Shown here piece after piece: positions 8,172-59,038 of a DNA stretch of 59,038 nucleotides. The position numbers and the translations under genes were made by a program. Source of the stretch: a virus; IMG/VR virus record IMGVR_UViG_3300025659_000001, positions 1 through 59,038 of that record; one strand, given 5' to 3'. Under the pieces are notes generated by a model that was given only the letters and a program-made list of their open reading frames with translations, did not search any database and was not told where the DNA came from. Positions within the stretch are counted from its first letter, which is position 1. Each line of letters opens with the position of its first letter.

Positions 8172-8182
8172 AATTTATCTCC

Positions 8183-9121
8183 TTATCGTGGTACTGGCGA
8201 GAGAAGCATCTTCTTTTCTACTTTTGTGAGTGCCGAAGTTCTCTTCCGTCCATGTGCTCCACAATGTTGACACTGGCAAGCATCATACTTAGCAGCGTTA
8301 GTGTAATAGTAACCTTTCCATAATAATGTATCCTTTTCACAGCATACAGTACAGGCGTTACCAGTAATATCCATATACAAGGCCATGTTGGGGTGTGGAT
8401 TTTCCCATCCACGTAACATGACATATACCTCTTCAAGTACGCGTACATCATATTCGTTATAGTTGAGCATAGTAGCAAATGCGTCCATGTCTCCCTCATA
8501 ACATCTATCCCATAATGGTCTGCCTGCATCGAGCTTGCGTGTTAGGCCAAGTTCTCTTGATATGTTATCCATAGCATTAGATGCAAATGCAAAGTGCTTT
8601 TTAGCTATAAGCAGAGTATCAATGACACGATACAACGAGGGCTGTTTCCCGCCATTGGTCTTGTTCTTCAAGAAGCGTGTATTCATTCTCTTAACATCAA
8701 AGCCACGAGCATTATGAGCTATAACAAAGTCAGCTTGGTCTACAAGCCAGTATAGTGACTCAGTGATACGTTTATCATCATGAGCTACTGCTTCATCGTG
8801 GGTCTGTGCATCTGAAATCATTTCACTATCAAATAACCACTTAGCTGCCCATGTGTGAAGATGCCAATCAGTTACTACTTCATTGTGGCGAAGGAACTGT
8901 GGGCGTTTACTATCAAATGTTCGGTATGTCGTTAACGACGTTTCTAGGTCAAGGATTAATACCTTTGGCATTTTCTTTCCCCAATTACCTTGAGCTGACC
9001 CTGCGATACGCAGATAACGTTCAACGGAGTCTATGGAGACTCCTAATTCTTCTGATGTTGCTTCAACACCTTTTTCATCAGCTATACTCTTTACGAAATA
9101 GGCTCTTTCAAGACTAATCAT
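8183..9121 (-). CDS. DnaQ-like 3'-5' exonuclease with N-terminal HTH and C-terminal zinc ribbon
   Basis: I place the start at ATG 9121, inside the end of the endolysin gene (312 aa). A longer in-frame start at 9256 would run 143 bases into that gene and lacks a clear ribosome site. Residues 1-45 look like a helix-turn-helix (ATSEELGVSIDSVERYL). An RNase H-fold exonuclease follows: LILDLETS carries the DxE pair at D58/E60, IAHNARGFDVKRM is the second motif and NEYDVRVLEEVY supplies the last acidic cluster. The C-terminus has CTVCC and CQCQHC, a probable zinc ribbon. The domain order suggests a sequence-guided or structure-guided nuclease. It is odd to find it among lysis and tail genes rather than in the replication block. 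Confidence 0.75.
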   Translation of the reverse strand: MISLERAYFVKSIADEKGVEATSEELGVSIDSVERYLRIAGSAQGNWGKKMPKVLILDLETSLTTYRTFDSKRPQFLRHNEVVTDWHLHTWAAKWLFDSEMISDAQTHDEAVAHDDKRITESLYWLVDQADFVIAHNARGFDVKRMNTRFLKNKTNGGKQPSLYRVIDTLLIAKKHFAFASNAMDNISRELGLTRKLDAGRPLWDRCYEGDMDAFATMLNYNEYDVRVLEEVYVMLRGWENPHPNMALYMDITGNACTVCCEKDTLLWKGYYYTNAAKYDACQCQHCGAHGRKRTSALTKVEKKMLLSPVPR

Positions 9122-15200: not shown

Positions 15201-16081
15201 GTGTATGGAAATGTATAATTATTTGCACTTGTAGCTATGGTATCTAGCTTAGTGCCATCAACCGATACATCACGACCATCTACTGTCCCTGAGACTGTAA
15301 TATTATTAAAAGTCCAAGTGCTGCTTATTGTGGCTGCTTCCGCTTTACGTGGGAATGCTGTGCTATCGTAGCCGTCTAATTGGTCTGAGTCATTTGCTTG
15401 TGCGGTGAGTCCTAAATAGTCTGAGTCGTGGTTATGTGCTAGGACTGAATAAAGCCCTGCGTGGTCACCCCATCCATAGGCTGTATTGGCATTGGCAGAA
15501 GTACCACCACTCCATGCCATACCGCCAAGAACTGTTAGTGCGCCTGCACTTGTCAAGGTCATTTCTGCTGTTGTAGAGTTTACATAAAAACGAAGTGCGT
15601 CAGATGATGCCGTATTAAACTCAAGCCTTGCCATCTGAGTAGTATCAGCTTCATTATCACAAAGGCGTAATACTGCGATATCCTCATCCAAAGCCCTAAT
15701 ATCAATCATAGGATTGGCTTTGAGCATTGTCAGGTTGCCAGTCATAGTATCACCAGCTACGGCAACAGTTCTAGCATCTATTGGATGCCCTGTTGAACTC
15801 GCTGCGTGGTCATAAGCCCAGTTGGAACTGATAGATTCGGTTGTTACACCATTAACAGGAGTATCATCTACATTTCTCCACGTATTAAGGTCGGGTGGTG
15901 TAGCCCATGTACCATTGTATTGTAAGAATTGTCCCACTGACCCCGCTGCTGGCACATGTTTACTATTGCCTGTACCTGCATTATGGTCATAAGCCCAATT
16001 AGAACTTACTGGAACCGTAGAAGCCCCATTTACGGGGCTATCATCTACGTCAGTTGTCGTTAATATCTTAGTCCATGCCAC
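12245..16081 (-). CDS. Long modular tail fibre with internal repeats and a C1q-like head
   Basis: This 1,278-aa fibre is rich in Gly, Ser, Thr and Asn. The segment VDDTPVNG...SSNWAYDH occurs three times (about residues 10, 66 and 1110), AYGWGNHASAGY-type segments recur several times, and a block of about 50 residues beginning AFSQSGTYMSLRAGATT occurs twice. The last 130 or so residues have the alternating pattern of a C1q/TNF-like jelly roll, a common trimeric receptor-binding tip. The N-terminus, MAWTKIL, is shared with the 291-aa protein encoded at 16586-17461, which suggests a common attachment module. The repeats probably allow exchange by recombination. Confidence 0.8.
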   Translation of the reverse strand: MAWTKILTTTDVDDSPVNGASTVPVSSNWAYDHNAGTGNSKHVPAAGSVGQFLQYNGTWATPPDLNTWRNVDDTPVNGVTTESISSNWAYDHAASSTGHPIDARTVAVAGDTMTGNLTMLKANPMIDIRALDEDIAVLRLCDNEADTTQMARLEFNTASSDALRFYVNSTTAEMTLTSAGALTVLGGMAWSGGTSANANTAYGWGDHAGLYSVLAHNHDSDYLGLTAQANDSDQLDGYDSTAFPRKAEAATISSTWTFNNITVSGTVDGRDVSVDGTKLDTIATSANNYTFPYTVSASAGNSTVVQRHSSGYIYANYFNTTPNTVTSGVTQVCVETGNDGFIRHGSAGAIRTFINVASGATANTGTVTSVATSGSVSGLTLTGGPITTSGTVTLGGTISISASNITDVAPFSQSGTYMSLRAGATTKGDVGLGSVENTALSTWAGTSSITTVGTLSSGAIPWSLITGEPTHDNYVSWNMIDSDDGVHAISSGENFQIKDGNGLTSAYSSVSWTNEITFTLGTPSTTTQATSNAVTGSSHTHAWTHTSSSNWDTAYGWGNHASAGYLTSETDSQTLSYASSTGILTISGGNTADLGIGTSDSPTFAALTITGNGTFGSTSRTANTTVKALAGNGYNTGFEAYGLSQGTGYMYVGQSTTHGGGMYYNGDGTPSFATGESTDHITFYRNASSTKTVVFDYGYNDGIVDFKVGPTSSGVAIATVNTNWSAADITSGTLAVARGGTGLTSGYNNTNWDTAYGWGNHASAGYTSNTGTVTSVGTTGTVSGITLTGTVTTSGTLTLGGTVAITSANISDVAAFSQSGTYMSLRAGATTAGDVGLGSVENTALSTWAGSANITTLGTVTTVGNVDGRDIAADGTKLDGIEDNANEYTLTKAGVEAVLTGAITTHTHAVGSHNLTDHGDVSISAVGAGEIMYYNGGTWQNATLAEASVSGTSHNHSGTYEPADSAIVKSDEAETISASWNFSNALVEVADKIGHYGDTDTYMTFGTNTWGVYTGGGSAISVNTSQQTTFSQQVTTAKNLIVGSGLSISASDLTLATGNIVVAGGATVDGVDVSALNIAVSSHYSDTSTHGVTGSILGTEDVDDTPVNGATTVPVSSNWAYDHVSASDPHSVYGLKDRPAFLVTNEVADTFGVGIQTKVDFNLEIFDTNSNFSADTFTAPSAGKYQLNCTLRLDNIDTGASNYQIRFVTSNRTYYWLYDPNFTADLSYNSFQIAELVDMDASDTAYVAVYQVSGANQSDVDGQTNLWTRFSGFLAIED

Positions 16082-35615: not shown

Positions 35616-35846
35616 ATGCCTGCCAAGAAACCTGCTGCTGAGATTACTATCTATCTCATGAACCTCAAACCTACGTTTTCCGAAACGACTGTTACCTCTG
35701 GTACAGTAGCTGAACTTCGCAAGGAGCTCGATTTAGGTTCTGACCAGTCTGTTAGCGTCAACTCAATCGTTGCTGCTGACGATGCATGTATCCGTGAAGG
35801 TGATCGTGTATCGGTGGTTAAGAAAAACAAGACTGGTGGTCAGTAG
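35616..35846 (+). CDS. Ubiquitin-like beta-grasp protein with C-terminal GGQ
   Basis: The start at ATG 35616 (76 aa) follows AAGGAGGG; an upstream frame start at 35529 lacks a site. Residues 9-70 have the MoaD/ThiS/ubiquitin-like pattern: strand-turn-strand, the helix TVAELRKELDL, then VSVNSIVAADDACIREGDRV, closely resembling the VNG...L..GD segment of MoaD. The protein ends TGGQ. A diglycine followed by one residue is typical of a ubiquitin-like modifier that must be trimmed to expose GG. Here the JAMM peptidase encoded at 38508 would do the trimming and the E1 (39443) would activate it. There are no cysteines, so it is not a simple sulfur carrier by that criterion; the GG is the key feature. 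Strong case for the modifier. Confidence 0.8.
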   Translation: MPAKKPAAEITIYLMNLKPTFSETTVTSGTVAELRKELDLGSDQSVSVNSIVAADDACIREGDRVSVVKKNKTGGQ

Positions 35847-35866
35847 ACCTTGACTTGTTGAACATT

Positions 35867-35898
35867 ATAAGGGAGCCTTCGGGTTCCCTTATTTTTTT
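35867..35898 (+). terminator. Rho-independent terminator after the ubiquitin-like gene
   Basis: AAGGGAGCC, a TTCG tetraloop and GGTTCCCTT form a 9-bp stem with one G-U pair, followed directly by seven T. It separates the modifier gene from the E2/JAMM/E1 genes and would set the modifier in excess over the enzymes. Confidence 0.85.
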
Positions 35899-35975
35899 GG
35901 CGTGTTCCTCTAGCATTCTCTAAGACCTAGCTGATATTGAGCTGGAAACGTGGGTACGAAATCCCACACACGCCA
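35899..35975 (+). ncRNA. tRNA-like cloverleaf (77 nt), non-canonical
   Basis: The ends form a perfect 7-bp acceptor-like stem, GGCGTGT (35899-35905) with ACACGCC (35968-35974), plus an unpaired A. A perfect 5-bp T-arm-like hairpin GTGGG/CCCAC (35950-35967) stacks on it with loop TACGAAAT. A 6-bp anticodon-like arm has the 7-base loop GATATTG (35927-35945), and the D region has a 3-bp stem. Total length is that of a tRNA. But the T-loop has eight bases and U55 is replaced. The anticodon loop lacks U33. If read literally the anticodon is UAU. A degenerate tRNA or a tRNA mimic is more likely than a working tRNA. Directly followed by TTTTTTT. Confidence 0.45.
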
Positions 35976-36018
35976 TTTTTTTGAATGATAATATTAACTA
36001 TCTTGGAAGGGAGGTCAG

Positions 36019-38484
36019 ATGCTTAACAAATCTGATTTTAAAGGAGCAATTACTTCATATATGAATGGAGGAACGCTCAACAAGGTACGTAAGTACTTTT
36101 ATGATATCACACACTATTTGAATTACTTTACAAATTGGTTGTATGATACCAATGTGCTGTATGAGGATGAATACGGTGATGCACAAGATAAACCACACCC
36201 TAATCCTCATATTGAATGGTTTCGTATAAGGGCAGAAGAATTGAATAGGATTCCACAAAAGGAATTTCCTGTCTTTAATTACCTAACACCTAAGTTCCGA
36301 TTCAATGCAAAATTTAAAGAGCTAAGTAATCATTTGATGGGTGCATTTATGTATCTAACGCATGATGGCTTGTCAAGGTTCAAACCCGGCATTAAGGCCA
36401 GAAGAATCAGTATTAGCACTCATAACCATGATGCTAGAGAGGCTATCGCAAGCTTCTATTCACTTAGCTTTAATATAGCGAGGGAATTACAAGGTGCTAT
36501 GTCGCGTGGAGAGATATTAGCAGAGCCTAGTGTCAAAGAATTTAAACAACGCACTGGTATGGCTGCCAAGGTGTTTAATAGCTATATTGGCTATCAAGCA
36601 TCTATACTCAACAAGAAGGTAAAAGTTATTCGTTCTAGTCAGATTATTAAGACTCATGGAATGCAATTCTTTAATCAACTGGTTAGACCTTCTGCTTTAA
36701 GACCCATTGATTACGTACTGTCTGTTGAAGGCAGTGTAAATGTCATTGCAAGTCAAAAGTATGAACGGTTTAGTGATGTTGAGGCTATTCTAGACTTTGA
36801 TGCTAATCTCTATGTTTTGATTGTTGAACAGCAAGATTTAGGGGGATTTGCTAATCAAAACCCTGAACATCAAGCAACTATGATACCTACTATTCAAATC
36901 ATAGCTAAGATAAGTGACCCTGAGTTATTTGAGGTTACTATGTCTGGTAATGGCCCCGGTAGACATGGTGGTGCTCATGGTGAGCATGGAACTGGAGAAC
37001 ATTTACTCCAGAATATGCCATTAGATGCGTCAATGACATTGTGGTACTATAACCTCACAGATATTTACAGGCTCTCTGAACATTATATTCCGTATCGTAA
37101 GATTATTGCTGCTAAAGGTAAGTCAATAGATAAATTTAATAAGTTGACAGACCTTTTGTACAAATCTGACACATATATACAGGGATACATGAAAGCATAC
37201 TATTACGGTGAGGAAATAGGAAGAGTACATCCTTATATCTCACCTAATACATCAGGTAGATGTACTGGTGGCTTTAATGAGATTGATGCTGCTAGTGGTA
37301 AGCTGAACCTAGTATCAGGTTTGGTATTTGTGAAACAATGGTTGTCCAAGTATATTCAAGGACATACTAACCCTCAAAACAATATTGACCACTTCATTGT
37401 TGGTATACCACCTTGGTTAACCGACAGATATACTGAAGTCAATGGTCGTATTGGGGATTGGGAAAAGTGTAAACAACGTTTCTTTGGTGATAGAGTCCAG
37501 AATTTGAATTATTCTTGGAATACACTACCATATCCAGCGTTAAGCACCCTTGAGACTTCACGGATTGACCAATACAACAAACGTCAAGTTGTAGGTTGTG
37601 ATGTAGAAGAAACTTACAAGAATCTGGACAATACGTTTTATAAATCTAGCATAGATTATACTGCTCGATTAGAAGCGTACCATTGTACTGATTGTGCGCT
37701 TGCAGAGAGTTGTCCTAAGTTTAGTCAGTTTAGACTTTCAGACAGCAATCCAGCATGGAGAAGGATGCAAGCCAGAAGAGCAGTACGTAATAAGACAGCT
37801 CTTGAGCATTTCTTAGATGATGCATTGATTGAAACAATACGTACTTATATTAATGAGTATGTATTGCCACAAAGAACTATCACTGACAATGATTTTAGAA
37901 TGCAATTAGAGCGTTTTAGAATATTACTTGATAATAGTTGGCCTCATTTGTCATTGAACGGTGCACATACACCTCATATCACTACTGTTCAGTTTCTTAC
38001 AATCTTGTATGATGCTGTGCTACCTGAAGAACATAAGCATTTTGCTAAGACTTTTGCAAGTGTTACTGAGACATTTAGACATGAATATCGTCTTTCAGGA
38101 CTCAGGCAACGTATGGGTGAGCGTATAACGTATTACAATGAGAAAAGTGATGATGGTAAAAAAGAATACCGAGAGAAAGCAGCAAAACGCCTTGCTAGAT
38201 TTTCTCAATCATTTGAACAAGCTAATAAAATACACTGGAAATTTGGTGTAGGTTATTGGTTGGGTACTATTCCACCTTTAGTTACAAATGAAGCACTATG
38301 GGAAGACCAGCAACAAGCAATGAAAGAGTTGAATGTTGTATCAATAGAAGAACCAGTTGATACTTTTCAATCTGCTTCTGAACGCATGATTGATGCTGTT
38401 CTGAATAACCCGCCTGTATTTAATGTGCAGGCCACAGATACAACATCTGTGCGTGGAGCAATTTCATTTGATAATGAATTTTAA
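36019..38484 (+). CDS. E2-like (UBC-fold) conjugating protein, large form
   Basis: This 821-aa protein contains an E2-like active-site segment. IGRVHPYISPNTSGRCTGG has the pattern HP-x-I-x(n)-G-x-C of ubiquitin-conjugating enzymes, giving H404-P405 and Cys415 as the candidate catalytic cysteine, followed by a W-containing helix (GLVFVKQWLSKYI) as in E2 folds. Strands that would form the UBC sheet lie at about 290-335. Residues 550-565 have HCTDCALAESC, a possible zinc site. The N-terminal 280 and C-terminal 250 residues are helical and unknown; they may choose targets or act in an E3-like way. Neighbours supply the modifier, JAMM and E1. The size is far above a plain E2 (about 150 aa). The C415 assignment is from pattern only. 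Confidence 0.6.
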   Translation: MLNKSDFKGAITSYMNGGTLNKVRKYFYDITHYLNYFTNWLYDTNVLYEDEYGDAQDKPHPNPHIEWFRIRAEELNRIPQKEFPVFNYLTPKFRFNAKFKELSNHLMGAFMYLTHDGLSRFKPGIKARRISISTHNHDAREAIASFYSLSFNIARELQGAMSRGEILAEPSVKEFKQRTGMAAKVFNSYIGYQASILNKKVKVIRSSQIIKTHGMQFFNQLVRPSALRPIDYVLSVEGSVNVIASQKYERFSDVEAILDFDANLYVLIVEQQDLGGFANQNPEHQATMIPTIQIIAKISDPELFEVTMSGNGPGRHGGAHGEHGTGEHLLQNMPLDASMTLWYYNLTDIYRLSEHYIPYRKIIAAKGKSIDKFNKLTDLLYKSDTYIQGYMKAYYYGEEIGRVHPYISPNTSGRCTGGFNEIDAASGKLNLVSGLVFVKQWLSKYIQGHTNPQNNIDHFIVGIPPWLTDRYTEVNGRIGDWEKCKQRFFGDRVQNLNYSWNTLPYPALSTLETSRIDQYNKRQVVGCDVEETYKNLDNTFYKSSIDYTARLEAYHCTDCALAESCPKFSQFRLSDSNPAWRRMQARRAVRNKTALEHFLDDALIETIRTYINEYVLPQRTITDNDFRMQLERFRILLDNSWPHLSLNGAHTPHITTVQFLTILYDAVLPEEHKHFAKTFASVTETFRHEYRLSGLRQRMGERITYYNEKSDDGKKEYREKAAKRLARFSQSFEQANKIHWKFGVGYWLGTIPPLVTNEALWEDQQQAMKELNVVSIEEPVDTFQSASERMIDAVLNNPPVFNVQATDTTSVRGAISFDNEF

Positions 38485-38507
38485 TTAACCTAAAAGGGAG
38501 GTGAAAT

Positions 38508-39443
38508 TTGTTTTTCATCGAGCGTAAAGATATGCGTCGTGTATTTGATTATGCACAAGAGACGTATAAGAAGTTCAAAACTGAAGTAGGCGGTATGATG
38601 GTCATCATGGAAGATAAGGATGGTGACTGGGTAGCTAGTGACCCTGTGATACTGAAACAGGAAGTAACTGGCGGTACTACTACTTTAGATGCTGATGCAC
38701 TTGCTGTGTATTATGGCAAGATGGCTGAGAAATATGGCAATAATGTCAGGTTTCTTTGGTGGCATTCGCATGGTGGTGGTAGTGTATTTTGGTCTAGTAC
38801 AGACGAGATAGCCATTAAAGAGTTCTCTGGTGGTGATTGGTCAGCTAGTTTAGTGGTCAACATTAAAGAAGAGTTCATCTTTAGGGTAGATTATTGGAGT
38901 CCATTCTATAAACGTATGGATAAGATGAAGTTATCCTATTTTGAACATGACGTTCCAAAGAAAGTCTTAACTGACATTGATAAGTTGGTGGCAGTAAAAA
39001 AGTACGAACAGAGCAATATAGCAGACAACCGCAACACGAATACTCGGAATACGGCTTCCACTCCAACGGTGAGCGAAGCGGACTTGGGGAATCGTGGCAA
39101 CGAGAGTTTGGGCCTTCTGCCCAACGAAATCTCTTCTGAGTCTGACCATACATTAGACCAAGATGCTGTTTGGCAATGGATGGATGAATTCATTGACCTG
39201 TATATTGCTGATGAGATGAGCTACAACAACTTGGAAGAGTGTGTGGGTCATATCAATACAATGTGTGATTCTCATGATACCATTCATCAGATTACACTTC
39301 CATCGAAAGACCGTATGAAGATTTACGTAGAGAAATCTGAAGTACCAAGTCGATGGGATTTCTTCACTTATCGTAAAGGTAAGGGAACAGAGGAGCAGAT
39401 GCAACTTGATGCTGATGCTGCTCAAAAGGAACTGACTACCTAG
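38508..39443 (+). CDS. JAMM/MPN+ isopeptidase (deubiquitinase-like)
   Basis: The start is TTG 38508, directly after GGGAGGTG at ideal spacing. The 311-aa protein has a textbook JAMM zinc site: E26 (TEVGG), then H86-S87-H88, seven residues, S96, two residues, D99, exactly E...HxHx7SxxD. Such metallopeptidases cut after the GG of ubiquitin-like proteins, either to mature the precursor or to remove the modifier from targets. Both fit a modifier ending GGQ. Residues 150-205 are a disordered linker (Asn/Thr/Ser-rich). Residues 205-311 are an acidic, partly helical domain of unknown role. The stop TAG overlaps the GTG of the E1 gene, so the two are made together. Confidence 0.88.
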   Translation: MFFIERKDMRRVFDYAQETYKKFKTEVGGMMVIMEDKDGDWVASDPVILKQEVTGGTTTLDADALAVYYGKMAEKYGNNVRFLWWHSHGGGSVFWSSTDEIAIKEFSGGDWSASLVVNIKEEFIFRVDYWSPFYKRMDKMKLSYFEHDVPKKVLTDIDKLVAVKKYEQSNIADNRNTNTRNTASTPTVSEADLGNRGNESLGLLPNEISSESDHTLDQDAVWQWMDEFIDLYIADEMSYNNLEECVGHINTMCDSHDTIHQITLPSKDRMKIYVEKSEVPSRWDFFTYRKGKGTEEQMQLDADAAQKELTT

Positions 39444-40129
39444 TGAGTGATTTCCGAGAAAGATACAAGGATTTAGTAGACAACTTGGGGAGCTATACTA
39501 TTCACATTTTAGGATGTGGTGCTATTGGTTCTTCAAGTGGTCTACAACTTGTACGTATGGGTGCTGATAACCTACGACTCTACGATGATGATACAGTTGG
39601 CATTGAAAATGTTGGTGTATCTCAGTATGGTAATTCGCACATTGATTCTTATAAGGTTCACGCTTTACGAGAACTGATGCTTAACATTAATCCTGATGCT
39701 GAAATTGAGGCATTTGACAGACTTTTCACCCGCCGAGTGTATGAACCACAAGGCAATGACATTATAGTAATTGGATTTGATTCGATGTCTTCACGAGCTG
39801 AAGCTATTGATACAATAGACCGCTATAAGGATAAGCCCGTCTTATTACTTGATGGACGTATGGGAGCTGAACAATATCAGCAGTATGCTTTTACACCATT
39901 CAATGCTGAAGAATACTTAAAGACTTGGTATTCTGATGCTGATGGTGACCCTGAACCATGTACGGCAAAGGCTACTTCATACTGCTCAAATATGGCTGGT
40001 TCATTTATGACTAATGCTGTGAAAAAATTCGCTATTGGTCAACCACTTGAGACTGGCATAATGTTTCACTTCCCTTCCATGACGCTAGAGCTAGAGGGTT
40101 TTAATCCTCCTAATGCTTGTCAGCGTTAA
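39443..40129 (+). CDS. E1-like/ThiF-family activating enzyme
   Basis: This 228-aa minimal E1-like fold starts with GTG overlapping the JAMM stop. The nucleotide-binding loop is G24-C-G26-A-I-G29. The second strand ends in acidic D48-D50, followed by N56, Q61 and K71, the positions that bind ATP in ThiF/MoeB/E1 enzymes; the usual Arg near Q61 is not obvious. The segment PEPCTAKATSYC carries C173 and C181, the best candidates for the thioester cysteine. E1 enzymes adenylate the GG end of the modifier and pass it to an E2 cysteine. The paired JAMM and E2-like genes indicate conjugation rather than sulfur transfer. Confidence 0.85.
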   Translation: MSDFRERYKDLVDNLGSYTIHILGCGAIGSSSGLQLVRMGADNLRLYDDDTVGIENVGVSQYGNSHIDSYKVHALRELMLNINPDAEIEAFDRLFTRRVYEPQGNDIIVIGFDSMSSRAEAIDTIDRYKDKPVLLLDGRMGAEQYQQYAFTPFNAEEYLKTWYSDADGDPEPCTAKATSYCSNMAGSFMTNAVKKFAIGQPLETGIMFHFPSMTLELEGFNPPNACQR

Positions 40130-40527: not shown

Positions 40528-41103
40528 ATGCCTATGCATCAAGATATATCTGACTTATTAGCACTTGATACTATGCGTCTGCTTTTAACAGAAGATAGTA
40601 ATCTCGACCAATCTTGGTGTGTAAAGCCGGGGTCGCAAGAGATAATACATAAAATTGGGCTTGCCGATTTACCTTGGAAAGAGTTCAATAAAATATGTAT
40701 TGATGGTGGAGAGCCATTTATCTATTGGGAAGCTATGTGGGACTTATTGGAAACCATGCCTGCCGATAAAGATATTTGGATATATACCAATGGATTATTG
40801 ATTGAACCTTTTATGTTAGAGATGTTAAATTCTATCCCTGAAGTAAAAGGTTTAAATATCCAAGTCTATTTCCCAGAACAAATTCGTGGCATTACTCCAC
40901 TTGTGGACAAATACATGGATGTACGTTGGGATATTAAACAGATAGACTACAAACATTACTTGCAAAAATATCATCAAAGACTTGGTACATTATTACCGGG
41001 CTCTAAGAATTTCAAGATATGGGCTGCTGGTGATGATGAACGTGAGAATGAATTAGTCGTTTCTATTGAAGACTATGTTTTCGCTCAAGGTCTTTGTTTT
41101 TAA
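40528..41103 (+). CDS. Radical-SAM-like protein lacking the cluster cysteines
   Basis: The protein has 191 aa. ICIDGGEPFIYW (G60-G61-E62-P63) and DIWIYTNGLLI (T87-N88-G89) match two hallmark motifs of radical-SAM enzymes: GGEP binds the SAM amino group and the TNG strand follows in the barrel. But the CxxxCxxC motif that holds the iron-sulfur cluster is missing from the N-terminal part; only C31 and C57 are nearby. It is shorter than a full barrel. So it is either a non-catalytic binding protein derived from the family or an enzyme with a different chemistry. It follows the conjugation cassette. Confidence 0.55.
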   Translation: MPMHQDISDLLALDTMRLLLTEDSNLDQSWCVKPGSQEIIHKIGLADLPWKEFNKICIDGGEPFIYWEAMWDLLETMPADKDIWIYTNGLLIEPFMLEMLNSIPEVKGLNIQVYFPEQIRGITPLVDKYMDVRWDIKQIDYKHYLQKYHQRLGTLLPGSKNFKIWAAGDDERENELVVSIEDYVFAQGLCF

Positions 41104-42169: not shown

Positions 42170-42994
42170 ATGATTAACCCCGTTATACCCATAAGGAAAA
42201 CTGATTTGTCAAAACTTTTAAACAAAGTTCTGTTCTTCGATTTTGAGAAAGGTTCCAAAACATTAGGTAACAATACTCTTATTGAAGACTTGTTTGGCTA
42301 CCCAGTATTAAGACCCGATTCATGGGCTGCTTTTGAGGCTACCATAGCTCAACTCTTTGATATCAAGATAATGAATATCAAGAAGAAACTGGCTAATATT
42401 GATGTAGTTGAACCAACACGTGTACTTCTTCCCAAAGAGGGAGTACCCCTAGATGCACTTGTATTAGATACATTTTCTGAGTTAGCCAAGAAGTACCAAC
42501 GTACACTTGTTGGAAAAGATGGTAAATTAAAGATTGATGGTTGGGGTAAACTCAAAAACGCCATTGATATGAAAATGGAAGATATTACACGTATTCCTTG
42601 TCATCTCATTGTAAATGTCCATGCTAAAAAGGACAATCTTGATGATGGCTCAACCCCACTCATTCCATATATTGATGGTTCTTCTAAAGAAGACCTTGCT
42701 AAATGGTTTGACTTCGTAGTTTATACGAAAACAGTACCTGCACCCGGCAACAAATTGAAGTTCATGTGGCACATTAACAAGACTTCTACATTTGCTCATG
42801 CCAAAGATAGAACTCAGACTTTACCTGCTGAGATACCTCAAGACTATCGTGTTCTATTAGATGCAGCGAAAAAAGCTGGATGGCCTAATGCTAAAATATT
42901 AGTAATTGGTACACCCGGTTCAGGTAAAACAAAATCGTTAGAAACTCTAGTTCAAGAAATCCCCGATACAAAAGCTAAAGAGGAGAAATCTTAA
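42170..42994 (+). CDS. RecA-fold P-loop ATPase (Sak4/AAA_24-like), apparently circularly permuted
   Basis: The protein has 274 aa. Its N-terminus, KVLFFDFEKGSKTL, corresponds to the strand that follows the P-loop helix in Sak4/AAA_24 ATPases. Walker B is ALVLDTFSEL (D100), and LIVNVHAKKDN is the sensor-like strand. The Walker A loop GTPGSGKT is at 247-254, only 20 residues from the C-terminus, on the last strand. In the usual family order it comes first. So the core looks circularly permuted. It is coupled to the next gene (TAATG). A role in single-strand annealing or recombination is inferred from the family and from neighbouring replication genes. If the start is TTG 42206, the protein is 262 aa. 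Confidence 0.65.
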   Translation: MINPVIPIRKTDLSKLLNKVLFFDFEKGSKTLGNNTLIEDLFGYPVLRPDSWAAFEATIAQLFDIKIMNIKKKLANIDVVEPTRVLLPKEGVPLDALVLDTFSELAKKYQRTLVGKDGKLKIDGWGKLKNAIDMKMEDITRIPCHLIVNVHAKKDNLDDGSTPLIPYIDGSSKEDLAKWFDFVVYTKTVPAPGNKLKFMWHINKTSTFAHAKDRTQTLPAEIPQDYRVLLDAAKKAGWPNAKILVIGTPGSGKTKSLETLVQEIPDTKAKEEKS

Positions 42995-51600: not shown

Positions 51601-51665
51601 CTTGCGGTTTCGTCTGAGGGAACCCTAGAATTACCTGCTGCTCCTCTACATCCTGCTACTGGCAT
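48651..51665 (-). CDS. Large virion-associated protein, partner of the giant protein
   Basis: The protein has 1,004 aa, mainly helical and charged. It is the last gene of the minus block. Its ATG overlaps the stop of the 2,982-aa gene (TAATG), so the two are made together. One hydrophobic segment is near the C-terminus (about 830-855: IQTIGTGLFAMISGFSVGGL). The rest has no catalytic motif that I recognise. Terminal position after the ejection-protein genes and coupling to the candidate polymerase suggest a further ejected internal virion protein, perhaps a membrane-passage or loading factor. Arg, Lys and Asp/Glu are evenly spread, as in large internal virion proteins. Confidence 0.55.
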   Translation of the reverse strand: MPVAGCRGAAGNSRVPSDETARQLKRVVEEGASVLSNHAASKLYGYDKDLETHKWLWKKYTGNPFDPDNIPIDKRDADRYIRGVNEFVNNLGKKESWFGHWFKLPKAIASKFPGGARMISEFEKSNSYNQRTLRDATGHINGMLEGMQKMMSDMNFDKSQYKNFQELERALLDAKPGEDAGKVLRDITKLIGDPSLEGGKKNGAEMLTRFRDLLEFTKQPDPNKPWEEKIVGHWNTLRTDMARNLHNALFTTRRTLQRMRFDSSDRAGIESSMKMLDEAMSSMLFQTSVDANQRIPDMGTGTHMVKDMRIYDPESRTTKPIMVTKRRMVDGREVVTEEIAVGIKKYSPHYVIELTNAVRQLSDYAQNPQSAMKKHGAKFEGQKPSEIAERIQSMITDQILPGFAKPRGNTDKYIALDPVYYLNKYVQDVANYNFKSRVNYAFMDATHDALKHIRKVNTSQGAKDNGDLANFSEYTLDVLNEIRGSTLNQTRGEMNSMDYMVQIINGFEYISKLGLSVKGGLKNRGQGLFNWVWFGGKGYKNRDNFLAGHNSRETTATENRDAYRNNKEMLDRQLKRYALTGDIEKASRTVEAGQSAATAGSIDYYMVPKGFAINERGELIIDRSSNALREVSRKMGEAANASAITMRWAENKNRQNTFEIAFASQWDIESGRQAHYEKVLMKRYGKVPTRKQLFDHIEDISGNYAIEMVKTLHFDYDNWAKSRINRGDQRYMGKMAGASKIVTQFQHFKFAYFDLMFNLMKDGLGDIKGGNWTAIDPLDASKTIVSPSIARMMRSVAIQTIGTGLFAMISGFSVGGLAEMFGDDKKSDGLVENPIASEASKLYEWITADESTKEGLEKKWNTYYGKHPALANLGPFVSDVLTAGELFDFINLTPESIESRMGLEKDTNDPDWWYRVARIFNIQAARSAWHTIPALTNGQWEKAFRIETGMYKPPKYINDLHEKLMGGIQKGYNKVKGLPEIKPRGGTSLSVKRREAALKSLKNL

Positions 51666-54600
51666 TATTCACATCCTTTTTCATATAAGTGACTATACTC
51701 TTTGGTTAGTTTGTCTTTCAGTGATACCTCTGTACCCTCACCGTATCCACCAGCATGTTTACCAGCATCTCTTACTGCTGGAGTATCTTCATGTATGGCT
51801 CTAGCAGCACTAATAGTTCTCTGCTCTTTTGAACCCCATATGGATGCTACTGATTCGGCTATCTGAGAATCACTTGGTCTTAGGTTTCTACCTCCGACAA
51901 CGTTTTCAGTCAGATGATACAGCTCTATTGGGTCGAGATGGTAAGTCCCGTTCATATAGGCTGCCATTAAGTCTGCTGCCAACTCATCTTTGATATTTTC
52001 ATGAGTCATCCAAATAGGTATTTCTTCTTTTGTTAGCTGGAATATCTTTAATGGTCTCCTCACATCCTCTAGCCTGCGTTGTGCCATTACATCACCCATT
52101 ATAGTAGGGTTATTCTGCCTTAATAACTCAACAGTCATTCTCTGTATAATATCGGAATGTAAATCACGGGCTAGGTCTGGGTGTATTAAATCAGAACCCT
52201 TGCCTGCCATCATCTTATCAAGAGTAGCAAGTACAAGTTTCTCATTATGTCTATTACTTCTATATGCTTCATGAGTAATATACTGTCCATTAGCGGGGTC
52301 ATAACCAGTAACTGCCATTTTCTTATTGTCAATCACTGGTGTTAAGAGCCTAAATAACAACTGTTTAACTCCATCTGCTCCTGCTATTTCATGTGCTCTA
52401 CCCATATGGCGAGCAAGTACATGTTGCTGTAATTCACTTACAGTTCCCCATTTATCAGAACTCATTGGAGCAAACCTATCATTAAGTAGGCTAACCTCAA
52501 ACAGTTCCTCTGGCATACGTTCTGCAATATCATTAATCCTGTCACGAGTTCCACTATATTCTAGGGATGGTAAATCACGAGCAAAGGCTTTAGCAAATGC
52601 TCTTCTTGATTTCAGTACTACATCATGTTCAACTTGTAGCTCCCTTGGGTTATAGATGACAACATCGCCCTTGTTTAACCATTCTCTTTTACCCTTGCTT
52701 ACACGCCTAAAGTTGACAACTTCATTATTCTTGATAGTGTAAATATGAGCAACCTTGTGGAATAAACGATTTTCTGACTCTGGGTTAGTAATCATAGTCC
52801 CTCTAGCCTCAACACGACCATTCAACTTTTCATTGATAATGCCAATAGCCTCTGTATGAGCTTTCATGACCTTCAGTAACCTATCATATTTAGAGGTGTT
52901 AGTCTGCTTGAAGTGACGCATCTCTTCTAATCTGTCATTGATTCTCTGTGCTTCATAGCTTATCCAGCCCATTTGAGCCCAATCTGATTCAGTACGAATG
53001 TATGTGTTCAATGCTGATGTCATTGTCTGCCTGTCATAATTGAACTCACCACTAAGCATGTTCGTAATAGTAGCATCAGTAGCAGGTTTTTTTCCATTAA
53101 TCTCTCTATTGAAATATCCAGCCAGCTCTTTCATTCCTTGAGCTAGTGGGTGATTACTGGTAGACTGTTTACCTGTTGATGTAGCTCCTAGCCACTCCAG
53201 TAGATTCTCAGCTATTCCTGCTGTGTGATTAAGCTTGGCTCCAGTATTCCTATCTGTGAAGTTAGCATGGTTCTGAACCTTACGTATCACATCATTATAA
53301 GATGATACTAGTTCTGTAACGCCCATCTTGCGTTGAGTACCATTTGCCATAGTCTCTGTCATGTTCTGAAGGTTGAAGAACTGACCTAATGGTATCATTA
53401 GCTCTGTCATTTCCTTCTGTAAAGTACGTCCAGTAGATTCTTCCCTTGCATCAATCCAACCGAGTTCTTGGTCACGCCTTTCAATCTTTAGGAAGCCATT
53501 ATCTCCAAACCATATAGCCTTACTTGCGCTAAATTCACTTGGAACTTCTGGTGTAGCCTTGTAAACATCAATAGTCGTTTTAATCAAGTTCTTCAAGTAG
53601 GCTAGTGAATTGATATACTCACCACCATCTTTAAAGGTGACCCTAAACCTATCTTTAGACCTGTTCACATGGTCATTAAACATTTCTATGCCGTCATTGA
53701 CAACAGCATGGCTTACTCCACCTTTTTCATTGACTTCATAGCTACGTGCTAGGCCGGGCTCAATACCATCTAAGCCAGCTCTAGATACTAACATATTGTA
53801 TATCATGGTAGCTGCTGAGTGTTGTCTCACAATTCCACCACGCATACCTTCAAGGTGAGCTATGTAGGCATTTTTGGTAGTCATATCACTAGAGTTGTCA
53901 GCTAAGACAGACTTCATAGCAGTATCAAATAACTTACCTGTGGCAACATCTTGATACCCAGATAGATTGTAGATGTCCCTTACAACCGCACCCGGTAAAG
54001 CGAAGAAACTCGCACTCTTATCAAGGTCAAAGTCAGCATCCTGTGGGTCTACAACGTCTAGGTAGTTCATTTCACTAACTGGGCCTCGTTTAGCACTTAA
54101 TAGTTTCTCTACCTTAGTGATAACGCGGTCTGACATTCCAGCCATAGGTGTACGCAGGTCAACATTAGCAACGTGGATTGCTTTGAATCCAGTCTTTTTA
54201 GCTGCCATTCGACCGCCGTTAGATTTATAGTCTTGTCCTTGTAGTTCTGTACCTTCCCAATATTCACCATCTAAGTGAGCTACTAGGTCAGCTATATTCA
54301 TACCTTCAAACCCCTCTAGGGCATCAGCATAAGCCTTCTTAAAAGCACCATTAATGCGAGCATCTAGCTCTCTGCCAACTGCCTGACGTTTTGCACTACC
54401 AAAGATTTTATCTCCAGCCTTTTGTCTCATAGCAGTCAAGTGAGGCCCCATTACAAAGCCATCATGAGTTACTACAATGTCGTCACCAGATTTTAATGGT
54501 TCAAAGCTCATATCTTTCTTGCTTCCGTATTCACCAAGTATAGCATTCATCTCGGCAGCCTTCTCTGGTGTAAGCGTCAGGATGAGCGATACACCCTGTT

Positions 54601-57600
54601 TGTCACCCATACCCTTGATACCACCTACAAAAGTCTCTTGATGCTCTCTGTATGCCTTTCCGGAGCCTCCAAACATGCGTTGGTATCCTTGACCTGAACC
54701 ACCTTCGATAATTCTTAGGGGCATTGACAGGTCTGTTGCTGCTGTCATGACATTGTAGCCACCATAAGGCGTTCTACTGGTCGTGAAGTTTCTATTGCCT
54801 AGATACTCAGATACAAGCATTTTATCAGCTTGAGGAATCATATATTCAAATACTGGAACACCACCAGCCTCTAGTACGCCTTCAATACCCATAGACCTAG
54901 CGAATAAATCACCTCTATTGAGTGCTGAGTTGCGTAAGGTAGCCATTGATGACCTAAAGCTCAACGGATTAGAGTGCATGTCCTTATAAGACCTTAGTAA
55001 ATCAGATACAGCTCCCAAGCTACCCGTCATATCATTCAAGGCTTTCTGCCCTTCATTAGATAAGTGATTACCGAACGCTGCTGTGAGTGTTCCATCATGG
55101 TCTGTTGAGATACTCTTGAGAAGAATAGCCTCATTAGGAATCATGGTGATTAAATCTTTACCTGCACGTGCCATAGGGTCAACCAAGTCCATCAAACCCT
55201 CTCCGGGGTTCTTAAAACTGTTGTCTGTCTCTGCTGGTGTAATCCTCAGTCTCTTGTCTAAGAACTGTTGGCCTTTTCCTGCCTTAGTTTTGTTGATCTT
55301 CATAGCAGAGCTAAACGTAATAGAATCAGTCTTATAGGTCTTTCCATCAGGATTCTTCATCATGGCATCCATCATTGGATTAAACTTAAAGGCTGTCTTA
55401 CCAACCTGTACTGATACCGAACCATCTTCTCCAAACTCAGAGTTCATCACTGTTGGTTTAATAACAGCTTGAAAGCCTGTAACCTCACCCTTTTCATTAA
55501 AGGTAAACCAATCCTTACTGCCACCTCTGGTCAACAAGAGTGCTGCCATGTGGGGTAGTGAAAGATACCATTCACCATTAACTACTGAAGCATCTGCTGT
55601 TTGGTAGTTCTGCATTTGTATTTCAAGCATAGCATCTGCATTTTCAATAGAATACCCATTGTCAATAAGCTGTTGCTTGAGCTGTGCTTTACCACGTTGA
55701 TATATGCTAAAGAACTTTTCACCTTGACCATCTTCATCTTCGATTTCAATAGTACGCATATGTTTATTCTTCACCATCTGTGACTTGAAGTGCTTTAAAA
55801 TATTCAGCATTTCCTTATCTTCACCAGCATACTTGTCCCAATATCTCTCAGTGACCTCGACTGTTGTTTTATCAAGAGCAAGACCATTACGAGCATTATC
55901 TAACTTAGCGTATTTCAATAGCTTAGCTATCTTCTCTGGTGTCGCAGTTCTCTCTATAAACATTGCCTGTACTTCATGTGGTACAGCATCAATAGCTCTA
56001 GTTAGGTACACTAGCTTTTCCAGTACCTCTAGACCATTCTTGCCATTCTTATCAAAGCCAATATTCTCAAAATATCTGTCAACTAATTCTGGACTATCTA
56101 CTAGCGCAGAAAGCTGTTTCCGTATACGTGATTCTGGGTTCTTCCAGACCTCACCAGCAGTACGTAGGCCACGAGCCGACATCACAATAGTCGTTCTGTC
56201 ATCGAGTTCTAATACTCTAAACTGTGGTTTATTGCCTTTACCATCCCCAACTAAGGTACTTTGGAGTCTCTCAAGTATTTGGGAACTCTCCACATCCATA
56301 AATTGATCTAATGGAATGTCAATACCCATACCCTTCGCGGCATTGATAGCAATCGCATCTCGTAGCCCTTTGTCTAATCCTCTTAGCTGTCTCTCACCAA
56401 TAACAGCCTGTTGTCCTAGCATCATGATAGACCCATCAAAGTCAGTTAGACCTAATTGATGTTGAAGTCTATTGATACCCCTATGCCAACGTGATGTGAC
56501 TGTCATCCCAGCATTAAAAGTACCGTTTTGACCAGTCCTATCGGGAGCGTTATAGCTCAAAGTAAGCATTTGTTTTCTATTGATTTGGTTCATAATAATC
56601 TGCATAACATCTGAATGAAAGTCAGGTCTACTATTTCCACCCATACGCCCAGCCATATCCTCAACAAATGGGAAAATAATAGATTCAACAATATCAGCAG
56701 CTTCGACATATTCTTTAGTCTTTTCGTTAAAGAACAACTGATTAGCAGCATTATCTCTATCATAAGCTACCCTGCCTTTACCGATTGCATACTGAACCTT
56801 TTCAGTTAATGATGCAAACCCTTCTGGAGTCACACCGTAATCAGAATACTTTGCTATAAAAGCACTCTCGCTGATGGTACTAGAATGTGATGACCAAGGA
56901 CGCGTGTGTATTGGTCGCCCATTAGCTCCGTAGTGGTCATCTATCCACTCAGGAACTTCATAATATTCATCTAGCCTTGTCTCTTCCATGTATTTCTCAA
57001 GTGACCCATTCATTATGAGTTCAGCTTCCATCAAAGCTTCCTTCAAAGGCTCTGCTTTTATACCTTCATAGCGACTCAATTTAGACTTTAATGCCTCTAA
57101 CTGTCCAAGCCTTGTCTCAAGGGTACGCAAACCAATAGCATCACCAGTCGCAACCATCCACTCAATAGTGTGTTGGATACGTCCAGTAACCTCTGCTAAC
57201 TCTACTAAATGATTACGCATAGTTGAAGTCGAGGCATCTTCTTTCCATTGCTTTGAAGATAGTGTAATTCTTTCAACTTCAGTACCCAAGCCACTAATGG
57301 CTTCAGCTACCTGCCCAATTCTCCGGAGCCTATTAGCATCAGTTGATTGGTTCAAACCTATAATAGTATTCATTAATTCCATTGGTTCAAGGAAGTTTGG
57401 TATCTCTCCACGAAACTCAATCATTTGAGCTCCATTACGTTGACCTTCTCTCAATGGTATTTCAATGTTGTCTCTATAAGAGTCTATTTCTTTTCTTGTC
57501 TTAGCATCAAGTGGGCCATCACGACTCACTAACTGCTCTATGGCACTAGAATCTAACATTAAGATTTTGCCATTAGAGTGAGTGACTAAGCCTCGCATCT

Positions 57601-59038
57601 CTATCATGTTCTCAGAATTGAGGATAGTAGCAAAGATATTACGCAAACCCGGTGTTGCTTTAGCAAGAGTCTCTCTCGCATACTGGTCTAAACCTGATGC
57701 CATAAACTCTTGGAAGTATCGTTCGCTACTAAAGATGTCACCAAACTCTCCCTCTAGGGATTTTTTAATGCTCTCTACGTGCTCAATACCACCTTTATCA
57801 AGAGCAACTGCTCCTCTATCTCCTTTGACATGGAAAAGCTGATAGGCTTTATTCATGCGGGCTATAAAGTCCATTGTGTCTTGGTCAACTACCTCATCAG
57901 CAGCAATCTTTAGCTTGGAAGAGTTATTGTATAGCTTCCGCAACTGTCCCAGTAGTTCAGCTTCGTTACCCTCACCCTTGCCACTCATCATTCTATAAGC
58001 ATTGCGATTTCTCACATGGAGCTTATGTGTCTGAATGGCATGCCAAATTGGTGTAGATTTCAGGATATTAAAATCATAGAACTCAGTATCTTTTTCACGG
58101 TAGCCTACAATGTTATCACGCCAGCTACTATCTTTAGTACCGAATACACGCTGATGCAATGCTTCGGTATGCTGATTGAATACGTTCTTAAAGGCTTTGT
58201 TGAACTCTGGGTCTGTAAGTATCTGACCCTCAGTCTGTGAGTCATACGCTCTACCAGTACCTCGCTTTAGAAGACCACTCTTCTCAGCAATCTTCATAGC
58301 TTCACGTAAGACCGTGGCCTCTCTGTGTGTTTCTCTACGGGCAATCATATCAGTCAGCATGCGGTACATGCTCTCTGGCATTACTAGATTCCCGCTATCG
58401 TCAACATCTACTTCCCTTCCTAGGGCTTTCAGACTGTCTTTGATATAGTTACGCATAACATCATTGATGTCTCTTGTAACCTTGCTTACCGCGTCGAACC
58501 GCGCTTCTTCGATTAAGTCTGTTACGTTTTGAGCATTAAGTTTATGGTCTTTAATACGGCTAGTGGTCAGCTCTGCTACATACTGCATAGCTTCTTCTTT
58601 TGTCATTGGCTTAATTAGCTCATGTGTAACTTGTCCTCGTGTAACAGCTCTCTCAAGTTCTGATGCCACTAAAATTTGTTCTTCAATGATGCGATTAGCT
58701 TCAGCATCAAGTGGGTGTACGCCTTGTTCATCACGCATCCATTCCATCCATGTGCGTTTTTCACCTTGGTCTGCGACACCTAATGACTTAACATATTCCT
58801 CTTTAGAGGTTAGCTTGGAGTTCACAATGTCAGATGCAGTTTTAAGCTCAGCCTGTACTGCCTCTGAGTTAATCTTCCGTCTAACCTGCTGGAATGTATC
58901 GTGTTCAGCGAATGCTAAAGCAACATTATCCCAACTAGAAGCCTTGACACCCATCATCTCTAATGTTTTCATGGTGTGAACAAATTCCTGAGAGTTAGCT
59001 CTAGTCTTTGTTGCAGCATACCATTGAGGCATTGGGTC
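51665..59038 (-). CDS. Giant virion protein, C-terminal 2,400 residues: candidate two-barrel virion RNA polymerase
   Basis: This is the main part of the 2,982-aa protein (numbering from ATG 1702, across the circular joint). DPQDADFDLDKSAS contains DFDLD at 2194-2198 (codons at 54020-54034), the DxDxD metal site of multisubunit-type RNA polymerases. A conserved Arg in DLRTPMAG, R2154, is 40 residues before it; in bacterial beta' the Arg of NRAPTLH is 35 residues before the aspartates. Upstream, KAGDKIFGSAKRQAVG (K2069, K2075) resembles the GDK...K lysine segment of the beta-type barrel. Spacing and wording also resemble crAss-like phage (phi14:2-type) and YonO polymerases (SDFDIDK). The rest is helical, with no other known domain. 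It follows ejection-protein genes, so I infer a polymerase packaged and injected, as N4 does with an unrelated enzyme. Confidence 0.65.
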   Translation of the reverse strand, partial: DPMPQWYAATKTRANSQEFVHTMKTLEMMGVKASSWDNVALAFAEHDTFQQVRRKINSEAVQAELKTASDIVNSKLTSKEEYVKSLGVADQGEKRTWMEWMRDEQGVHPLDAEANRIIEEQILVASELERAVTRGQVTHELIKPMTKEEAMQYVAELTTSRIKDHKLNAQNVTDLIEEARFDAVSKVTRDINDVMRNYIKDSLKALGREVDVDDSGNLVMPESMYRMLTDMIARRETHREATVLREAMKIAEKSGLLKRGTGRAYDSQTEGQILTDPEFNKAFKNVFNQHTEALHQRVFGTKDSSWRDNIVGYREKDTEFYDFNILKSTPIWHAIQTHKLHVRNRNAYRMMSGKGEGNEAELLGQLRKLYNNSSKLKIAADEVVDQDTMDFIARMNKAYQLFHVKGDRGAVALDKGGIEHVESIKKSLEGEFGDIFSSERYFQEFMASGLDQYARETLAKATPGLRNIFATILNSENMIEMRGLVTHSNGKILMLDSSAIEQLVSRDGPLDAKTRKEIDSYRDNIEIPLREGQRNGAQMIEFRGEIPNFLEPMELMNTIIGLNQSTDANRLRRIGQVAEAISGLGTEVERITLSSKQWKEDASTSTMRNHLVELAEVTGRIQHTIEWMVATGDAIGLRTLETRLGQLEALKSKLSRYEGIKAEPLKEALMEAELIMNGSLEKYMEETRLDEYYEVPEWIDDHYGANGRPIHTRPWSSHSSTISESAFIAKYSDYGVTPEGFASLTEKVQYAIGKGRVAYDRDNAANQLFFNEKTKEYVEAADIVESIIFPFVEDMAGRMGGNSRPDFHSDVMQIIMNQINRKQMLTLSYNAPDRTGQNGTFNAGMTVTSRWHRGINRLQHQLGLTDFDGSIMMLGQQAVIGERQLRGLDKGLRDAIAINAAKGMGIDIPLDQFMDVESSQILERLQSTLVGDGKGNKPQFRVLELDDRTTIVMSARGLRTAGEVWKNPESRIRKQLSALVDSPELVDRYFENIGFDKNGKNGLEVLEKLVYLTRAIDAVPHEVQAMFIERTATPEKIAKLLKYAKLDNARNGLALDKTTVEVTERYWDKYAGEDKEMLNILKHFKSQMVKNKHMRTIEIEDEDGQGEKFFSIYQRGKAQLKQQLIDNGYSIENADAMLEIQMQNYQTADASVVNGEWYLSLPHMAALLLTRGGSKDWFTFNEKGEVTGFQAVIKPTVMNSEFGEDGSVSVQVGKTAFKFNPMMDAMMKNPDGKTYKTDSITFSSAMKINKTKAGKGQQFLDKRLRITPAETDNSFKNPGEGLMDLVDPMARAGKDLITMIPNEAILLKSISTDHDGTLTAAFGNHLSNEGQKALNDMTGSLGAVSDLLRSYKDMHSNPLSFRSSMATLRNSALNRGDLFARSMGIEGVLEAGGVPVFEYMIPQADKMLVSEYLGNRNFTTSRTPYGGYNVMTAATDLSMPLRIIEGGSGQGYQRMFGGSGKAYREHQETFVGGIKGMGDKQGVSLILTLTPEKAAEMNAILGEYGSKKDMSFEPLKSGDDIVVTHDGFVMGPHLTAMRQKAGDKIFGSAKRQAVGRELDARINGAFKKAYADALEGFEGMNIADLVAHLDGEYWEGTELQGQDYKSNGGRMAAKKTGFKAIHVANVDLRTPMAGMSDRVITKVEKLLSAKRGPVSEMNYLDVVDPQDADFDLDKSASFFALPGAVVRDIYNLSGYQDVATGKLFDTAMKSVLADNSSDMTTKNAYIAHLEGMRGGIVRQHSAATMIYNMLVSRAGLDGIEPGLARSYEVNEKGGVSHAVVNDGIEMFNDHVNRSKDRFRVTFKDGGEYINSLAYLKNLIKTTIDVYKATPEVPSEFSASKAIWFGDNGFLKIERRDQELGWIDAREESTGRTLQKEMTELMIPLGQFFNLQNMTETMANGTQRKMGVTELVSSYNDVIRKVQNHANFTDRNTGAKLNHTAGIAENLLEWLGATSTGKQSTSNHPLAQGMKELAGYFNREINGKKPATDATITNMLSGEFNYDRQTMTSALNTYIRTESDWAQMGWISYEAQRINDRLEEMRHFKQTNTSKYDRLLKVMKAHTEAIGIINEKLNGRVEARGTMITNPESENRLFHKVAHIYTIKNNEVVNFRRVSKGKREWLNKGDVVIYNPRELQVEHDVVLKSRRAFAKAFARDLPSLEYSGTRDRINDIAERMPEELFEVSLLNDRFAPMSSDKWGTVSELQQHVLARHMGRAHEIAGADGVKQLLFRLLTPVIDNKKMAVTGYDPANGQYITHEAYRSNRHNEKLVLATLDKMMAGKGSDLIHPDLARDLHSDIIQRMTVELLRQNNPTIMGDVMAQRRLEDVRRPLKIFQLTKEEIPIWMTHENIKDELAADLMAAYMNGTYHLDPIELYHLTENVVGGRNLRPSDSQIAESVASIWGSKEQRTISAARAIHEDTPAVRDAGKHAGGYGEGTEVSLKDKLTKEYSHLYEKGCE
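58912..59038. repeat. Terminal direct repeat, right copy
   Basis: Identical to bases 1-127. The giant minus-strand gene enters here from the other end of the window. Confidence 0.95.

Follow-up and report, generated by a model that had tools for sequence, protein, structure and literature searches.

Can a phage own a complete ubiquitin-like protein-conjugation system, and if so, what would it be for? The question is raised by a 59-kb tailed-phage contig (IMGVR_UViG_3300025659_000001, positions 1-59,038; hereafter the window, meaning this whole stretch of DNA), whose region 35616-40129 carries four plus-strand genes. They encode, in this order, a beta-grasp modifier of 76 amino acids (aa), an 821-aa E2-like protein, a JAMM peptidase and a ThiF/E1 enzyme (Table 1). 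The original prediction saw here a full ubiquitin-like cassette. The four adjacent open reading frames, the GGQ end of the modifier, H404 and C415 of the large protein, the E26/HxH/x7/S/xx/D signature and the ThiF-like E1 were all found as described, and so was the overlap of one base between the last two genes (TAG stop 39441-39443, GTG start 39443-39445). In single-sequence family scans of the four proteins only E1 passed a curated cut-off, and the 821-aa protein had no family match. The case is therefore weak on the window alone and it is the relatives that decide it. Taking them into account, we consider it likely, with a probability of about 70%, that the cassette is a phage-encoded reversible ubiquitin-like conjugation module.

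A conserved gene set in distant phage groups

Single-sequence scans with the E2-like or the JAMM protein of the window found only copies of the window; it was E1 alignment that opened the family. A scan of IMG/VR with this alignment yielded 53 loci, and one with the E1s of the window's clade gave 254 relatives, 80 of which were kept. Iterated profiles detected all four genes in this order at 51 window-type and 40 crAss-type loci; at one further locus the order differs. Incomplete loci are mostly contig ends, and a few loci are near-copies of one another. Such recurrence, in about 90 loci and with invariant catalytic residues, far exceeds chance. The cassette, first noticed as a single case, is instead a widespread accessory module whose carriers include crAss-like phages.

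E1 also matches 76 annotated phage records (E-value limit 0.01). Most belong to crAss-like and Flavobacterium phages and label it thiamine biosynthesis protein or E1 enzyme family protein. Upstream of these E1s, and in the order of the window, lie a gene with a JAMM motif (HSHNN..FFSGTD), a gene with HSH...PC.G.GPI and a gene that begins like a beta-grasp protein. The cassette of crAss001 is gp79-gp76: gp76 (8001-8564 of its record, L006) is the E1, annotated as thiamine biosynthesis, and gp79 to gp77 are annotated as hypothetical or metalloprotease-domain proteins. The cultured Flavobacterium phage Fpv3 carries the set as gp55-gp52, where, as in the crAss-like phages, it had gone unrecognised.

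Related ubiquitin-like proteins, JAMM and E1 also occur in contigs of gut bacterial metagenome-assembled genomes (L133 7287-10669, L134 6393-10145, L136 2108-5462). These sets include a protein of 485-487 aa with NxH...C[IL]G and adjoin vWA-like or DUF6273-like genes. They look like a bacterial or prophage version of the system, one that seems undescribed.

The modifier

The modifier gene has a good ribosome-binding site and its product ends KNKTGGQ, with the two glycine codons at 35835-35840 and a single extra residue, Q, ahead of the stop. As the original prediction supposed, a beta-grasp fold is predicted for this protein: the AlphaFold2 model has a beta-beta-alpha-beta-beta topology with a loose tail (mean predicted local distance difference test score, pLDDT, of 79), and Foldseek relates it with probability 1.00 to ThiS, MoaD, TtuB, Caldiarchaeum ubiquitin and SUMO (best E-value 1.7e-3). 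The single-sequence match to a ThiS-like family is sub-threshold (0.007). K72, G74 and G75 (K-x-G-G) are invariant in the 48 modifiers of the window's clade, of which 25 stop exactly at GG and the remainder carry 1-126 extra residues. At one locus (L107, 5077-5700) the GG is joined to a 126-aa DUF7303-like domain, a fusion whose sequence would suit a natural pro-modifier or a pre-made conjugate.

In the crAss type, modifiers have an invariant Ser-Gly (33/33), followed in nearly all of them by a helical extension. Some crAss genomes seemed to carry the modifier alone, which proved false, since the matches were to the C-terminal helical extension standing alone. Such stand-alone genes, of about 80-160 aa and located 3' of the primase, were found at L246, L248, L252, L255, L257, L259-L261 and L264, all from crAss-type phages lacking the cassette. 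The extension thus exists independently of the modifier.

A strong intrinsic terminator separates the modifier from the E2-like gene in the window. Conservation of this element in the window's clade was rejected (2 of 44 gaps), but in the crAss type it is real, with terminators in 22 of 33 gaps against 2.4 expected. A terminator at this position would allow an excess of modifier over its enzymes, or would place the modifier on the upstream transcript.

Table 1. Positions of the cassette components and of adjoining genes in the window.
Feature	Position	Strand	Evidence
Ubiquitin-like modifier, 76 aa, beta-grasp, tail NKTGG + Q	35616..35846	+	model, Foldseek, conservation
Intrinsic terminator, 11-pair stem and T run, between modifier and E2-like gene	35867..35899	+	sequence
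E2-like protein, 821 aa	36019..38484	+	motif, conservation, predicted topology
JAMM/JAB metallopeptidase, 311 aa, TTG start	38508..39443	+	motif, Rpn11 profile match
E1-like ThiF enzyme, 228 aa, GTG start	39443..40129	+	Pfam ThiF, PDB relatives
Sak4-type RecA-like ATPase (neighbour)	42170..42994	+	phrog_124 1.7e-23; Pfam AAA_24
Conserved protein of about 200 aa between Sak4 and primase (neighbour)	42994..43599	+	clusters covering 56+20 of 80 loci
Primase-helicase (neighbour)	43940..45694	+	phrog_16345 primase 1.6e-17; phrog_243 DnaB-like

The JAMM and E1 enzymes

Six JAMM residues, E26, H86, S87, H88, S96 and D99 (H86-S-H88-x7-S96-xx-D99), are invariant in all 53 relatives. The JAMM profile matches archaeal and eukaryotic Rpn11 at 4.8e-6, and the single-sequence match to Prok-JAB is sub-threshold (0.003). 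The protein thus has the glutamate, the HxHx7SxxD signature and the fold family of JAMM/JAB peptidases. It is intact in the 28 loci (28/28) whose modifier already ends in GG. Hence, the JAMM must do more than trim its modifier, and removal of the tag is the obvious further task.

The E1 matches Pfam ThiF at 3.2e-16 and has the GxGxxG (GCGAIGS) of a Rossmann adenylation domain, with the conserved Asp and Arg (D113, R139) and two cysteines, C173 and C181. Its relatives in the PDB are UBA5, ThiF, MccB, MoeB, Cap2 and BubCD. Both cysteines, which the original prediction had proposed for mutation, are invariant in the 52 E1s of the window's clade. C181 is invariant only there, whereas C173 is common to the aligned crAss-type E1s as well. 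C173 is thus, from its conservation, the candidate for a cysteine able to take the modifier.

The E2-like protein

The 821-aa protein carries V-HPYISPNTSGRCTGG, with H404 and C415, in a core of about residues 254-480 that is flanked by large helical regions. C415 (codon 37261-37263) is the candidate catalytic cysteine. Among 55 relatives P405, C415, P452 and C559 are always kept, and position 404 varies (38 H, 12 F, 5 Y), so that around the 404-415 site only P405 and C415 are invariant, in the context [HFY]PY[IV]...C[LTFM]G/D. The HP...GxC segment originally noted therefore stands for its proline and its cysteine but not for its histidine. H449, the other candidate for an invariant histidine, was ruled out too (20/55). 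A cluster of cysteines further along (C-x2-C-x5-C, residues 556-565), which includes the invariant C559, is possibly a metal site or a second reactive cysteine.

Is this an E2? A cysteine following an HPN-like motif is what E2s have, and both the motif and the register with UBC4 agree with it. The AlphaFold2 core (pLDDT about 80-92) shows, in order, a helix, a beta-meander, the HP...C segment and two helices. The invariant cysteine falls on the catalytic cysteine of UBC4 in 28 of 58 members against 5 of 123 other phage open reading frames, a comparison in which the members are related and the Fisher value hence overstates significance. The profile of the window's clade links to the protein of one relative, L057 (P=6e-5), which in turn has a weak alignment of 58 columns with yeast Ubc4 that pairs the two HP motifs and the two cysteines (P=0.02). 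The UBC sequences used in these comparisons may be inexact.

Several results count against a conjugating enzyme. The model of the whole protein reaches a pLDDT of only 63 and has no Foldseek match in the PDB, no Pfam UBC or Prok-E2 domain was found in any of 51 members, the direct profile comparison with UBC spans only 15 columns around the cysteine (P=0.026), and that of the crAss-type proteins gives no match. The UBC fold expected around residue 415 was thus not recovered by Foldseek against the PDB, although the predicted topology is compatible with it. Against viral predicted structures, the model finds six relatives of its own family (E-value 2e-8 or better). A Prok-E2_D scan of three metagenome-assembled genomes gave zero matches, controls included, and is thus uninformative. 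The E2-like assignment is well supported by context and motif, its fold is not proven, and this fold is the weak link of the four assignments. The claim of a full modifier, E2, JAMM and E1 set in a phage is accordingly supported in part: fold or profile backs three of the proteins, and conservation and synteny back all four.

An accessory module

For presence and absence the anchor was the primase-helicase. Among 16 primase-anchored relatives of the window whose upstream sequence was long enough, the four genes are all present in 8 and all absent in 8, with 0 partial sets. The cassette is thus accessory, and either whole or absent. The idea that it belongs to the replication core, since it lies beside Sak4 and the primase, was an artefact of E1 anchoring, as half of the primase-anchored loci lack it. 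Nor is it linked to the type of recombinase: loci with the cassette have 9 Sak4 and 5 ERF, and loci without it have 4 and 13.

In crAss-type phages the slot of the cassette may hold other genes. At L257 (11479-14869) and at 16 other crAss-type loci, T4-like rIIA/rIIB genes lie between the primase and the uracil-DNA glycosylase (UDG) gene, a slot that in cassette-bearing relatives holds the E2-like, JAMM and E1 genes. The primase-anchored crAss-type loci comprise 21 with the cassette, 17 with rIIA and 0 with both; the 19 contigs of near-genome length comprise 11, 6 and 0, respectively, and 2 with neither.

Genomic neighbourhood

The genes found in the window include those for a terminase, a portal, Sak4, a primase-helicase and a Gam-like protein; the terminase shares only about 25% identity with known phage terminases. 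Downstream of the cassette, Sak4 falls into two clusters of open reading frames that cover 49+13 of 80 loci, and the primase-helicase is present in 73 of the 80. The conserved protein of about 200 aa between them has no Pfam match; a role in single-strand binding would be a guess. In crAss-type phages the neighbours of the cassette are a gene resembling those for single-stranded DNA-binding proteins, the primase and UDG. Between the cassette and Sak4 the window has a 191-aa gene (40528-41103) with weak radical-SAM similarity (phrog_1802, 7.5e-4), shared only by the window and its close copies. Three large minus-strand open reading frames (48651-51665, 1004 aa; 51665-59032, 2455 aa; 12245-16081, 1278 aa) have no confident PHROG or Pfam match.

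Relation to known systems

No phage-encoded set of E1, E2, ubiquitin-like protein and JAMM appears in the published, non-subscription literature that we searched. The system works like the bacterial Bil, Bub and 6d-type systems but is none of them. Bil (BilABCD) likewise has a modifier, an E2, a JAB and an E1 in one operon and carries out conjugation during phage infection. Yet, it is a bacterial defence, and its E1, BilD, has an inactive and an active adenylation domain, whereas here a phage carries a single-domain E1 of 228 aa. BilA is an ISG15 homologue with two ubiquitin-like domains, whereas the 76-aa modifier has one, and the PADLOC match is limited to the generic part of E1. The multi-ubiquitin or 6e-type (Bub-like) operons, such as that of a Methylocystis plasmid (L140), share the ubiquitin-like protein, E2-like protein, JAB and E1 and lie on mobile DNA. 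They differ in having a JAB-E1 fusion, an E2/UBC protein of 129 aa, a DUF6527 partner and a modifier of the multiubiquitin family, while in the phages JAMM and E1 are separate and the E2-like protein has 390-820 aa.

A similar gene layout is that of 6d-type operons, in which a small standalone ubiquitin-like protein with a C-terminal glycine accompanies separate E2-like, JAB and E1 genes (Iyer et al. 2006, PMC1779556). These operons and PRTRC cassettes have the same separate genes, but on bacterial chromosomes and plasmids. The scores to PRTRC families (TIGR03735-03742) are all far below cut-off, the similarity being limited to sub-threshold PRTRC_ThiF (E-value 0.002; 7e-8 for the crAss type) and PRTRC_A (0.075), and no ParB-related or other PRTRC family was matched. 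CBASS (cyclic oligonucleotide-based antiphage signalling systems) Cap2/Cap3 have in common with the cassette the E1 chemistry and removal by a JAB, and the window E1 resembles the E1 half of Cap2. However, Cap2 is an E2-E1 fusion that joins the cGAS-like enzyme itself, whereas here the genes are separate and the modifier is a dedicated one; no CD-NTase was recognised among the neighbours examined. The Caldiarchaeum ubiquitin/Rpn11 system also has the E1-E2-ubiquitin-JAMM set and matches in modifier fold and JAMM, but it is a cellular archaeal system with a RING E3, and no E3 was found in the viral one. The single earlier report found of ubiquitin-like and JAB proteins associated in phages concerns the lambda/T1 tail assembly genes TAPI-TAPK (PMC1779556). 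Those lack E1 and E2, whereas the cassette has an E1 and an E2-like gene and lies in a replication region.

Mechanism and purpose

Given the gene set and its order, the modifier fold, the JAMM and E1 families and the invariant residues, we infer an E2 activity, a series of transfers and a target along the following lines. E1 would adenylate the C-terminal glycine of the modifier and take the modifier on a cysteine, probably C173, before handing it to C415 of the E2-like protein. The latter would then couple it, within the infected cell, to an amine on a target, and its large helical flanks would probably select this target, no separate E3 being seen. The JAMM would remove the surplus residue at the C-terminus (Q in the window), but its more important task would be to strip the tag from targets.

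Which proteins might be tagged, and why? Tentatively, we favour an early or middle device for counter-defence or takeover of the host, because the module is all-or-none and accessory, lies among the replication genes and fills, in crAss-like phages, the slot that in relatives holds rIIA/rIIB. T4 rII protects against exclusion by RexAB. The counter-defence purpose proposed at the outset thus has one indirect support, this slot, and two results weaken it. There are about 10 state changes on the primase tree and 4 pairs on supported branches, and rIIA differs in about 1 of these; with about one independent contrast, the exclusion between cassette and rIIA is an observation and not a significant association. 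Moreover, 12 window-type records, whether they carry the cassette or lack it, yielded no rIIA, so that the argument does not extend to the clade of the window. The idea, also suggested, that the phage tags its own virions is unsupported, as the genes adjoin replication genes and not virion genes. The broader scenario, in which several distant phage groups crAss-like gut phages among them, run a true E1-E2 ubiquitin-like system on host or phage proteins during infection, with an enzyme of its own for maturation and deconjugation, as an exchangeable counter-defence module replacing rIIA/rIIB, is more tentative again.

The main rival to counter-defence or takeover keeps the chemistry and changes the target. 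By analogy with the tagging of PCNA or RPA in eukaryotes, the modifier might switch the phage's own replication and recombination machinery (Sak4, the 200-aa protein, the primase-helicase). This is suggested by the position of the cassette beside replication genes in two very distant groups, the window's clade and the crAss type. Yet, half of the relatives that keep the primase-helicase do without the whole cassette, and it does not track the type of recombinase. A switch of core replication is unlikely for a module so dispensable.

An improbable alternative is that the cassette is a weapon against competitors, either tagging the virion proteins of superinfecting phages, as Bil does, or carried as defence cargo. 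The systems nearest in function (Bil, Bub, CBASS Cap2/Cap3) are indeed antiphage, E1 matches E1-E2 and BilD models, and the module is accessory and all-or-none. But the cassette keeps to the early replication block, beside constant neighbours, and is not in a region of the cargo or lysogeny type; and in the part of the window's open reading frames that was scanned, none was recognised as an integrase or lysogeny gene.

Less probable still is a sulfur-carrier or cofactor system, with a ThiS/MoaD-like thiocarboxylate donor, a ThiF, a JAMM for processing and the cysteine protein as sulfurtransferase or other enzyme. The E1 does score best to ThiF, the structures matched by the modifier include ThiS, MoaD and TtuB, crAss001 gp76 bears its thiamine annotation and the E2 fold is unproven. 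However, the ThiF score is 74.6 bits against an equivalog cut-off of 159, and the NCBIfam ThiF, MoeB and sulfur-carrier models are all far below theirs. The most frequent neighbour clusters, inspected by sequence and with family scans for the window's own genes only, held no recognisable rhodanese, ThiG, MoaE or tRNA-thiolation gene; and the HPY[IV]...GxxC motifs of the cysteine protein align with UBC. We prefer conjugation to sulfur transfer or mere trimming because every full cassette keeps the cysteine protein and the JAMM is intact beside modifiers that are already mature. Finally, several single-sequence family matches lie below curated cut-offs, as unrelated neighbours with chance motifs or decayed relics would have them. 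However, the gene order and the catalytic residues hold in about 90 loci and over deep divergence, and the set is gained or lost as a unit, with 0 partial cases in 16 anchored loci, which makes this explanation close to negligible.

Ubiquitin-like conjugation in prokaryotes has so far meant cofactor pathways and bacterial antiphage operons, whereas here a virus owns the whole kit. Its carriers include phages that rank among the most common in ocean-type samples and in the human gut. As crAss001 and Fpv3 grow in the laboratory, protein tagging by phages can be tested at once, partly from existing proteomes. If confirmed, it would also explain what is done by crAss genes whose present labels are hypothetical or, misleadingly, thiamine biosynthesis.

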